Source: Adineta ricciae (Eukaryota; Rotifera; Eurotatoria; Adinetida; Adinetidae). Taken from it: DNA of 64,000 nucleotides. The stretch covers positions 1,364,001 through 1,428,000 of the forward strand of contig CAJNOJ010000001.1 in the NCBI GenBank assembly GCA_905250025.1, written 5' to 3'. A program made the position numbers and the translations under genes. The notes below the pieces were generated by a model, which was given only the letters and a program-made list of their open reading frames with translations, made no database searches and was not told the origin of the DNA. Numbering within the stretch: the stretch's first letter is position 1; every line of letters begins with the position of its first letter. Shown piece after piece: positions 58,412 through 63,792 of the stretch.

Positions 58412-60919
58412 ATGGGTATTTTACGACATCGTCGTTTTCGTCGTCAAGAATTGCCACCAGCTAATGATGATGGAGAAGATGAATATGACGAAGATGGTGA
58501 AGAAGGCGACGACGACGACGATTCAGCGACTACTCCAGCGGGTGCAGGTCTTCCACTGACAACTACTGAAAATCAATTTGAAAAGGCTAAAGCAATTGGA
58601 AAAGACGTCATCGAAAAAGTACCGAGTGAGTCTACATATATATATATACCTTTTGCTATTCGGTGCGACCTTCGCTATCCTACATTCTTTTTTTTTCACC
58701 TATCGGCATAAGTCAAAAATGAAAAGTATGATTGTGTTCTTCGTGAATATGTTTATATGTATGAGTGGGAGTGATTGGCAACACTAGCATACCGAAAATC
58801 GATGCATATGATGTAACGTGGGCAGACTGAAACATTTTCTCTGACGATTCTTCTCTTTGCGCGAATGAAACGAACGAATCAAAATCCTCACGTTTCTTAT
58901 AAACTGTTAACTGTACAAAGCAGACCAAAATGTGTACGTGGGCGATTATTTACCGTGTCACTCTTAACTATGGCAATCGATGATATACATAAAAAGCATT
59001 ACAACAAGAGAAAAAAGATTTTTTCATTCCTTCTATTCGCTTTTTTTCGTGTTATTCGATCAGTAAAATAGTGTATGTCGTGTCTATTCGAAAATACGTT
59101 GGTGTGAAAGGATACTTACAAGCGTTGGCATACATATGCCTTTACCATAAAGGCTTAGATAATGACGAGTACTATGACAAAACAGAACTATACCATCCAT
59201 AAAGAAAAACGATCAGTTTTCAATATAATACCAGGTAAAAGATCACGTATGCACACAACTAAATGTTTGTTGTTCAATATACGATAGATGTCTGTAGAAC
59301 GAAGAACTCTCGTGAGACTACGAATAATTGATAATGAAATTTTGCTTATTCAATTACTTTTTATATTTCTTACCACAGTAGCTTAGCCGAGAGAGCGTCC
59401 ATCTCGTTAATAGAACGTCCACCGTTCGAGACGGTGTCTAAGCAGCGAATAACTTTTCTTTGAATTTCACTTTTCAGTGCCACCTTGGGCTACAATTATC
59501 CTCGTTATTATTGTTCTTCTTGCATTATGTGCGTGTATCGCATGTTGTATACGTCGAACGTGCCGAAAGTTATGGAAGAAGAAAGGAGTCAAAGGAGGCA
59601 AAGGTATTGATTTGCAAGCTGTCAAAACTTTCGGCTTACACAAAGAAAAGGTAAATATTATAATAGAAGAGGAGTTTTTCTTAATTCATACGTTTCCTAA
59701 TCTTTCAGGTTCAACCTGACATTGAAGAACTAACACCGAATATGGAAGATAATGAAGATGCCGATTCGAAGAAAAGTGAAGCACCTAATTTAGGGAAATT
59801 AGAATACTCGCTTGACTACGACTTTCAAAAACAAGAAGTAAAAGAATAACAAACTAAATTGTTCGAAAAGAGAATTCGTCTTGGTGTCATTTAGCTTAAA
59901 GTTGAAGTCATCCAAGCTCAAGAATTACCGGCAATGGATATGAGTGGTACCTCGGATCCATATGTGAAAGTTTATGTTCTACCCGATAAGAAGAAAAAAT
60001 TCGAAACGAAAGTTTATCGCAAAACACTAAATCCTGTTTTCAATGAGACCTTCATATTTAAAGTAAAAGACATTCGGCGGGAAAGAAAGCAACGCACTAT
60101 GTTTTGATTATGAATAGAATTTGGCTTATGGTGAAATTGGCGGAAAAACATTGGTCTTTGCTGTGTACGACTTCGATCGATTTTCAAGGCATGATCAAAT
60201 TGGTGAAGTACAAATTGCGTTGAATACAGTCGATTTAGGCAAAGTTATACGCGAGATAAAGGATTTATCACCTCCACCAGGAGATAAAGAAGCAGTGAGT
60301 TGACCATTAGAATTCGGCCATTTATTTATTGTATCATTCTTTTCAGGAAAATAAATTAGGTGACATTTGCTTTTCACTTCGATATGTACCAACAGCTGGT
60401 AAATTAACCATTACTATACTCGAAGCAAAGAACTTGAAAAAGATGGATGTCGGTGGCCTTTCTGGTAAGTAACAGTATTCTAATTCATTCGACTCTTGTA
60501 AGAATTGTATATTTTTCATTACTGTTTAGATCCATACGTTAAACTATCGTTAATGATGAATGGTAAACGGTTGAAAAAGAAGAAAACATCGATTAAAAAA
60601 TGTACATTAAATCCATATTATAACGAATCATTTACATTTGAAGTACCCTTTGAGCAAATTCAAGTATGTCGCCTAATCTTGTCAGCATGATGCTGATCTT
60701 GAGAGACACGAATGATTTTTCGTTTAGAAAGTACAATTAGTCGTTACTGTTGTCGATTATGATCGTATCGGCACATCTGAACCGATTGGTAAAGTTGTTT
60801 TGGGTTGTAATGCGACCGGCACTGAATTACGGCATTGGTCTGATATGCTCGCATCACCGCGACGACCGATCGCCCAATGGCATTCTTTGAAAGATCCGGA
60901 AGACGGCAAACCATCATAA
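58412..60919 (+). CDS. SYT1: Synaptotagmin 1-like vesicle calcium sensor
   Basis: Synaptic-vesicle membrane protein that senses Ca2+ and triggers SNARE-driven exocytosis. Eight exons: 58412-58625, 59478-59650, 59709-59837, 59895-60062, 60118-60294, 60347-60464, 60530-60663, 60728-60919; 434 aa. Acidic intravesicular N-terminus, one TM segment ([20 protein letters not shown]) followed by Cys and Lys, a linker, then C2A ([13 protein letters not shown] to PPPGDKEA) and C2B ([16 protein letters not shown] to the end). C2A Ca2+ ligands are present (MDMSGTSD and [10 protein letters not shown]); C2B has KMDVGGLSD and [10 protein letters not shown], where the last ligand is Glu instead of Asp. The polybasic KRLKKKKT and [17 protein letters not shown] are conserved. 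First intron is unusually long (852 nt). Confidence 0.95.
59372..59443 (+). pseudogene. tRNA-like relic in synaptotagmin intron 1
   Basis: Has an A-box-like TAGCTTAGCCGAGAGAGCG, a 7-base anticodon loop CTCGTTA on an imperfect stem (would read CGT, Thr) and a perfect T-arm CACCG-TTCGAGA-CGGTG. The acceptor stem does not pair (ACCACAG against TCTAAGC), so it is not a functional tRNA. Probably a tRNA fragment or tRNA-derived SINE head. Confidence 0.45.
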
Positions 60920-61930: not shown

Positions 61931-62710
61931 ATGTTTCAATTAATTCTTTTAACATGTTTATTCCCATTGTGTAGTAAGTGATTGTGTCGTTGCAACGATC
62001 AAACTTTAGTCTCTATTCATATTTTAGTCGGTAATAGTATTCATGGTCAAATTCTTTTGGATGGCGATGCGAATAAATCGGTGCGTGTTTCATCAGGTTC
62101 AACAACGACCATTTCTCTTCAAGACACGTCACTGGCTGATGCAGGAGCAGTGATGATCAAACAGATGCAAGTAGAGAATGTATTTGCACTTCCGTTTGCA
62201 TTTGAAATGGAAATACCCGATGATCTCTCGTCACACAATACGTATACACTGTCCGTTCGAATTACCAAAGGCGTCAATCTTTTGTATATTAACGATCAGC
62301 AGATCCGAGTAAACGTCAACAGCAAAAATCCAATCACACAGGACATCCCTGTTGTTCGTGTTAGCCAAGGTTCGAAGATGTTTTATACAGAAAATACTGA
62401 TAGAAATAAAATGATATTTAGATGAAATTAATGCTGCTGAGAAAGTAATCTCCAATGACGATGCAAAACAGACATCCTGGCCAGAAATGGTCGGCAAAGA
62501 AGGTTCGTATGCTGTTCAATATATAAAAGAAAAAACCGGTTCGTTTATTTATTAATCATTAGCAATACATGAACCTTCTCTGTGTTAGGTCTAACGAATG
62601 TTTTTACAATTAGACAAAACTCAGCAATGACAATGGATTATCGCCAAGATCGTGTACGTATTCCTGTTGATGATAATGGAATTGTCAGTGCAACGCCAAT
62701 CATCGCATAA
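61931..62710 (+). CDS. Secreted YbaY-like domain fused to potato-inhibitor-I domain
   Basis: Four exons: 61931-61973, 62028-62369, 62422-62538, 62589-62710; introns 54, 52 and 50 nt, all GT-AG, phase 1; 207 aa. Signal peptide MFQLILLTCLFPLC. Residues about 19-127 resemble the bacterial YbaY/YscW lipoprotein domain: TTTISLQDTSLADAGAVMIK, LPFAFEMEIP, YTLSVRITKG, LLYINDQQ, DIPVVRV. Residues about 146-207 are a potato inhibitor I (eglin-type) serine protease inhibitor: SWPEMVGKEGSYAVQYIKEK, then the binding loop NSAMTMDYRQDRVRI and VDDNGIVSATPIIA. By family analogy P1 is Met183 and P1' Asp184, predicting chymotrypsin/elastase/subtilisin-type targets. YbaY proteins are otherwise bacterial, so horizontal transfer followed by intron gain and fusion is inferred. 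No disulfides are predicted in either domain. Confidence 0.85.
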
Positions 62711-62939: not shown

Positions 62940-63290
62940 TTATCCCTTGGCCACACAGTACCGACCACGTTTAGCATTGCCATCATAACACATTAGACCG
63001 GCACAACACGGCGGTAGACCTACTCCACATGTCCATACTTGTGGTAGACATATTGGATTTTGATTTTGCTGCTGCTGCTGTTGTTGTAGTTGTTGTTGTT
63101 GATAATGTAATGGCATTATTCGGTATAACTGCTGTCTTGGAGAACCAAATTTTCTGTGAGATTCATCTAAATCGGCATCATGTTGTTGGATGTATCTTTG
63201 AAGAAGATGATTCAGATTATAGGCCGATCGGCGTGGGTACGAGATGGAACATGGGATGAGTAACAAGAATAGGCAGAATAGGAGATTCAT
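62940..63290 (-). CDS. Small secreted cystine-knot-like peptide precursor
   Basis: Single exon, 116 aa, ATG at 63288-63290. Signal peptide (MNLLFCLFLLLIPCSIS), a propeptide-like middle with a Gln run (bases 63066-63110), and a C-terminal six-Cys domain with spacing C-x6-C-x6-CC-x4-C-x9-C, the inhibitor-cystine-knot arrangement seen in many small secreted ligands and defence peptides. There is no dibasic site immediately before the knot. Function cannot be told from sequence; a neuropeptide/agouti-like signal or a defence peptide are both possible. Confidence 0.7.
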   Translation of the reverse strand: MNLLFCLFLLLIPCSISYPRRSAYNLNHLLQRYIQQHDADLDESHRKFGSPRQQLYRIMPLHYQQQQLQQQQQQQNQNPICLPQVWTCGVGLPPCCAGLMCYDGNAKRGRYCVAKG

Positions 63291-63792
63291 TTCATACGCT
63301 TTAAATTTGTTTTATGTATGTAAGGTTGTGTTAAAATAATTTACCATATAAATATGTACAAAGAGTTATTCATATACACGGAGGAGGCGGGTTTCACAAT
63401 TACTGTGTATTGACCTATGACGAAGTGTAAAGAAAATACGATATTGGCATTTTGTTGTCAGACTAATCCAGGGAAGAACATAGTATACTCAACGGAAAGT
63501 TTACCGATTTCGTCACTGAATTATAGGCCAGTAATAAAACATTCGATGACGTCGGTAAAGTTCTGAATATCAACGATGCCATAAATGTGATATGATCATT
63601 TAATAGTAACGTTCTTTTCATCTCGTACACACTCCTTCGTTTCGCTTTGCTTCTTTACAACGGTCGAAAACGGTCAAAATTTCATGTGGTTTATGTAATT
63701 ACAAGTGATATTGAAAAAATGTGAAAGTGATACTCGTTATGTGTAGACAGTGTGTATATGTAACCGAAAACGACAAACAAAACGCAATTCTA
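63291..63792. other. Spacer, no gene seen
   Basis: Upstream of the cystine-knot gene and downstream of the gene cut by the window end. Nothing recognised. Confidence 0.45.

Follow-up and report, generated by a model that had tools for sequence, protein, structure and literature searches.

Background

Two unrelated protein families meet in the gene described here. The potato inhibitor I family (PF00280; MEROPS I13) includes barley CI-2, leech eglin c and flax LUTI, and its relatives listed from the PDB are small single-domain chains of 64–92 residues. The YscW/YbaY family (PF09619) consists of pilotin-like bacterial lipoproteins, represented by PDB 5wec and 2yjl. We analysed a 64,000-nucleotide stretch of the bdelloid rotifer Adineta ricciae (contig CAJNOJ010000001.1, positions 1,364,001 to 1,428,000), hereafter the window, and a gene on its forward strand at 61931–62710 that joins the two domains. 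Unlike the short PDB chains, the inhibitor domain here forms the C-terminal part of a leader-bearing protein of two domains. The gene is not isolated; it belongs to a family of fusions in which the YscW domain is joined to unrelated inhibitor folds, a pattern wider than a single gene. We think it reasonably probable that this family provides secreted modular serine-protease inhibitors, in which a constant module of bacterial type is combined with exchangeable warheads.

Gene structure and domains

The gene has four exons, which join in frame and encode 207 amino acids and a stop codon. Exon 1 (61931–61973) contains the start codon and a hydrophobic leader and ends in phase 1. Intron 1 (61974–62027; 54 nucleotides (nt), GTAAGT...TTTTAG, phase 1) has the same position and phase in a second copy of the gene on contig C27. 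Exon 2 (62028–62369) holds the whole YscW/YbaY domain, with phase-1 introns on either side, and intron 2 (62370–62421; 52 nt, GTTCGA...TTTAG, phase 1) sits at the domain boundary. Exon 3 (62422–62538) encodes a linker and then the N-terminal half of the inhibitor domain (WPEMVGKEG...KTG). Intron 3 (62539–62588; 50 nt, GTTCGT...GTTAG, phase 1) follows KEKT within a Gly codon, and exon 4 (62589–62710) encodes the C-terminal half with the reactive loop, TM|DYRQDRVR, and the stop. All introns are GT..AG, the three phases follow from the exon lengths and the splice aligner agrees in the C27 copy. Thus, the exons and phases proposed by the first-pass annotation hold. The intron lengths are plausible because the published median is 55 bp (PMC5916493, in excerpt; first data column of a table, taken as A. 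ricciae). An alternative donor for intron 3 (GTTCGTATGC) also keeps the frame open, but 12 residues of the inhibitor domain are lost, and it was rejected.

Pfam profile searches placed both halves of the protein above their curated cut-offs, so the two domains, which had been recognised from family patterns, are real. YscW matches residues 32–113 (42.5 bits against 22.6, E-value 9e-11) and potato_inhibit residues 146–206 (61.2 bits against 24.5, E-value 1.5e-16). A six-frame search recovered both domains independently of splicing by hand, YscW scoring 43.7 bits in the unspliced DNA of exon 2. Inhibitor_I78 was rejected as the C-terminal half; it scores 18.2 bits in the window protein, below its cut-off of 23.6, and in the paralogue C81a it reaches 23.7, barely over the cut-off, against 75.5 for potato_inhibit. 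The AlphaFold2 model of the C27 copy has a pilotin-like beta-sandwich, as expected of YscW/YbaY, and, as expected of potato inhibitor I, a domain of CI-2/eglin type whose loop is canonical. The loop is exposed, and assignment of its residues by motif gives Met183 as P1 and Arg186, Arg189 and Arg191. In CI-2, arginines brace the reactive loop. The P1 residue varies among relatives and is Lys in the paralogue C81b.

The leader (MFQLILLTCLFPLCIGN) is a putative signal peptide, judged by eye. Bacterial lipoproteins carry a lipobox; here Cys14 is preceded by Pro-Leu, and inspection by eye found no lipobox.

The closest database match of the window protein is the A. ricciae product P0001 (93% identity over the full length). 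The C27 copy, spliced as the window gene, is identical to P0001 letter for letter (207 amino acids, NCBI/UniRef), and the model of another paralogue, C81b, is identical to P0006 (215 amino acids). The window and C27 copies share 93.1% identity across 4.2 kb, including non-coding DNA, to the ends of the compared stretches. Their coding sequences differ at about 37 of 624 bases (5.9%). Since homologous copies in A. ricciae differ by a median of 4.55% (PMC5916493, in excerpt), the C27 copy is probably the homologous partner of the window copy. Between the two, non-synonymous divergence (dN) is 0.034 and synonymous divergence (dS) 0.167 (ratio 0.20; 21 synonymous and 16 non-synonymous steps), and no stop intervenes. 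This indicates that selection acts on the protein, which is therefore not the product of a chance open reading frame; purifying selection acts on it. A chance frame or artefact is further ruled out by the two independent Pfam matches and by the identity of C27 and C81b with NCBI predictions.

A family of YscW-inhibitor fusions

We searched the genome (G000, 130 Mb) with domain profiles; the resulting counts are lower bounds. YscW was found at at least 21 places, potato_inhibit in at least 29 pieces, Kunitz in at least 37 and antistasin in at least 36. Splice-aware alignment and hand models defined six YscW-potato loci (the window on C1, C27, two on C81, C82 and C120), three YscW-Kunitz loci (C120, C82 and C81) and, on C10, a single gene that combines YscW with Kunitz and an antistasin-like part. 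An inhibitor is thus joined at 10 of the 21 YscW places. Both domains of the C120 YscW-Kunitz model (Kunitz E-value 7.5e-18, YscW 1.6e-16) and of the C10 model (2.4e-20 and 2.9e-17) are matched in Pfam.

The fusions are also present in other species. YscW-potato proteins occur in A. ricciae, A. steineri, A. vaga and Rotaria sp. Silwood1 (P0082 and P0083). YscW-Kunitz is found in 21 database proteins, and all 11 that carry an organism name come from Adineta or Rotaria (A. ricciae, A. vaga, A. steineri, Rotaria sordida, R. magnacalcarata, R. socialis and Rotaria sp. Silwood2). In one A. ricciae prediction, P0059, a CD225 domain accompanies YscW and Kunitz and may come from an adjacent gene merged in by the annotation. 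The first-pass annotation knew of no protein that combines the YscW and potato-inhibitor domains. In the databases, the fusion recurs in bdelloid proteins. Among the listed open-licence papers on YbaY and pilotins, horizontal transfer in bdelloids, rotifer inhibitors and exon shuffling, we found no description of the architecture; the word inhibitor is absent from the main text of PMC11258130, which presents an experiment on A. ricciae under fungal challenge, and of PMC5916493. The architecture is new, and its component domain families are known.

It is very improbable that the joins are gene-prediction artefacts in which adjacent single-domain genes were merged. Apparent retained introns in P0082 and P0083 would suit such an explanation, but 52 nt separate the two domain exons of the window gene, whose phases match, and six loci of this genome show the arrangement, as do A. 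steineri, A. vaga and Rotaria. Moreover, the join lies within a single frame in P0004, where YscW continues into WPEMVG..., and in P0081, where it continues into an antistasin-like part.

The YscW exon is flanked by phase-1 introns in all seven fully modelled genes (window, C27, C81a, C81b, C82 potato, C120 Kunitz and C10), and in the C120 YscW-potato gene the 3' intron, which was modelled, is also phase 1. Phase symmetry is the expectation for a shuffled extracellular module. Because these introns lie on both sides in seven of seven genes, the YscW exon looks like a shuffled module, and exon shuffling would be the mechanism. Among 20 modelled stand-alone potato-inhibitor pieces, 17 have one phase-1 intron where the last intron of the window gene lies; of the other three, one has a phase-2 intron at a different place according to the splice aligner and two are intronless. 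C81a, a fused gene, is without the inner inhibitor intron. The inner intron common to the 17 pieces makes it likely that the inhibitor half is native to rotifers. A tandem of four potato-inhibitor genes, apparently leaderless and each with one phase-1 intron, was observed on C235 (114987–116827; L028).

Age of the fusions

YscW-Kunitz and YscW-potato genes lie near each other on three contigs, about 72 kb apart on C81, 91 kb on C82 and 96 kb on C120. In 5-kb comparisons at the two genes, C82 matches C120 with identities of 93.9% and 91.2%. C81 has diverged from both but has a neighbouring frame beside the Kunitz gene in common with them (57% over 61 residues). These likenesses suggest that the three regions may be homologous and ohnologous copies. 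Two observations weigh against it: beside the potato gene, no neighbour common to C81 and C82/C120 was found in the stretch compared, and the strand of the potato gene relative to the Kunitz gene in C81 differs from that in C82 and C120. If the regions are such copies, the two fusions may be older than the genome doubling of bdelloids, and their presence in Rotaria agrees with this.

Origin of the YscW domain

The YscW domain was probably acquired by bdelloids from bacteria, as its distribution and fold indicate. Three protein searches gave 5, 76 and 132 matches (120 of the 132 listed). Most of the matches are nameless, and the organisms named among those listed are bdelloids (Adineta, Rotaria and Didymodactylos) and one Pseudomonas. 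Every named non-bacterial match listed is therefore bdelloid, which makes it improbable that YscW is an old animal domain that was lost in most lineages and never horizontally acquired. The single-exon structure of the stand-alone rotifer genes on C305 and C143, which also have no visible leader, argues in the same direction. In favour of an old animal domain, the rotifer YscW set is diverse, the trees fit one clade or several, and C21 carries a 925-residue open frame (L043 5685–8459, forward strand) with YscW-like sequence, scoring 64.1 bits for PF09619 over the whole frame. One stretch of this frame passes the cut-off alone, and by eye it may hold tandem repeats.

Two YscW trees were made. 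A quick tree of 104 rows was drawn from 230 with the domain, mostly metagenomic proteins and duplicate loci being omitted; in it the stand-alone domains of rotifers require 4 changes. For a reduced tree of 76 rows and 113 columns, the 12 longest branches (Ar_C110, Ar_C4_510, Ar_C133 and nine bacterial) and 16 Chloroflexota rows were removed. In this tree a single clade unites the YscW-Kunitz domains (100/100), and another the 11 stand-alone rotifer rows left after removal of the long-branched ones (100/99). The 22 inhibitor-joined rows share one side of a branch with 8 relatives, weakly (73/55), and in 7 of these 8 no inhibitor was seen. Neither the 14-row potato group as a clade (P value of the approximately unbiased test, p-AU, 0.255) nor all 41 rotifer rows as a single clade (p-AU 0.232) was rejected. 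The potato-domain tree (30 rows, 62 columns) omits the C120 copy and two of the 20 stand-alone pieces, which have no first half. Its best version splits the fused domains (5 changes), and a single group is not rejected (p-AU 0.083).

Chloroflexota accounted for 35 of 40 loci in a genome scan for YscW, but the query held bacterial sequences, at least one of them from Chloroflexota. Because such a query biases the scan, no donor phylum is named. A sample of 120 genomes from the phylum to which G001 belongs, G001 among them, contained the domain in 14 cases. Among five bacterial YscW relatives scanned, four carry META, one carries leucine-rich repeats and none an inhibitor; META was also present in one of the 120 matches listed (of 132) in one protein search. 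A Chloroflexi locus (L045 2–2818, forward strand) has a 939-residue open frame in which leucine-rich repeats and a cadherin-like domain are combined with YscW at the C terminus.

Proposed function

The gene is presumably expressed and its product secreted. In the modular inhibitor that we favour, the potato-inhibitor-I domain would be the warhead. Its loop, with Met183 at P1, would mimic a substrate of chymotrypsin-, elastase- or subtilisin-like proteases, which might be microbial or the animal's own. The YscW beta-sandwich would be the constant module and, as a first guess, would bind or position something. After the bdelloids acquired the domain, probably from bacteria, its exon may have gained the flanking phase-1 introns, and exon shuffling may then have joined it to inhibitors of three or more kinds (potato I, Kunitz and antistasin-like among them). 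The transfer, domestication and fusion suggested by the first-pass annotation are supported in part.

Several points weigh against this proposal. No inhibitor was found at 11 of the 21 YscW places (C143, C140, C110, C84, C80, two on C305, two on C4, C21 and C133), and the YscW domain therefore has other uses. The antistasin matches lie below the cut-off of 21.2 bits, at 17.2 in C10 and 21.0 in P0081. For the Kunitz genes of C81 and C82 and the potato gene of C120, the join is based on position, frame and likeness. The potato, Kunitz and C10 groups are separate in the quick tree. With 113 and 62 columns, the trees of the two domains decide neither the origin nor the numbers of transfers and fusions; thus the bacterial origin does not rest on a rooted tree. 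The protein search requires shared 5-residue words, and distant animal homologues may escape it. Leaders were judged by eye throughout, and three database models, P0007 of A. vaga and P0082 and P0083 of Rotaria, start without one and may be cut short.

A binding role can be considered from bacterial pilotins. EpsS/AspS pilotins hold a helix of the secretin, and pilotins as a class bind their partner secretin (PMC6532946, in excerpt). EpsS/AspS and type III pilotins are of distinct structure (PMC3542185, in excerpt), so that binding by YscW is an analogy. An animal would not be expected to use the domain as a secretion-system pilotin with a secretin partner. A further possibility, which we regard as tentative, is that a single ancient bacterial pilotin-like domain became a symmetrical phase-1 exon and was repeatedly shuffled onto potato-I, Kunitz and antistasin-type inhibitors; in such a bdelloid antiprotease system the foreign domain would stay constant and do the targeting, perhaps by recognition of a microbial surface or protease, with a variable warhead. 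It is unlikely that YscW itself inhibits or binds proteases and makes these proteins double-headed inhibitors.

YscW might instead serve small inhibitors simply as an intramolecular chaperone that aids folding, solubility or secretion. The Pfam label of the family is lipoprotein chaperone, and YscW is the first domain after the leader in the seven fully modelled genes. Stand-alone potato inhibitors look leaderless by eye, and the secreted ones might therefore need YscW. But the four YscW-Kunitz places do not include 33 of the 37 Kunitz pieces, counted whatever their leader, and some YscW genes are on their own, so that we consider such an aid rather unlikely.

Neighbouring genes

Upstream of the YscW-potato gene, a C2-domain gene, synaptotagmin-like by eye, lies at 59895–60916 on the forward strand. 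C2 (PF00168) scores 79.1 bits at 59895–60104 and 18.6 bits, under the cut-off, at 60728–60916. On the reverse strand, 62940–63311 encodes a small protein that looks secreted. It has a run of glutamines and, C-terminally, the pattern C-x6-C-x6-CC-x4-C-x10-C, which by eye resembles an inhibitor cystine knot; Pfam gave nothing over cut-off for it.

Significance and comparison with known systems

Horizontally acquired animal genes are mostly discussed as whole enzymes. Here, an apparently foreign domain with the gene structure of exon shuffling stands on several unrelated inhibitor folds. If this is true, transferred DNA enters the modular secreted-protein repertoire of an animal, and intron gain and shuffling after transfer can be tested in a clade of which several species have been sequenced. 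It would also point to an antiprotease family of bdelloids with varied predicted targets, possibly in digestion, defence against attacking fungi or desiccation.

Compared with bacterial YscW/YbaY lipoproteins, the rotifer gene differs in its introns, its leader without a lipobox and its protease-inhibitor partner. The META partner of the bacterial META-YscW lipoproteins is also absent; META had no match in the window protein or in eight further proteins scanned with Pfam. Multidomain animal Kunitz and antistasin inhibitors are likewise modular and built of phase-1 exon modules, and the YscW-Kunitz sisters lie well above the Kunitz cut-off. What sets the rotifer family apart from these inhibitors is that one module of bacterial type recurs on unrelated inhibitor folds.
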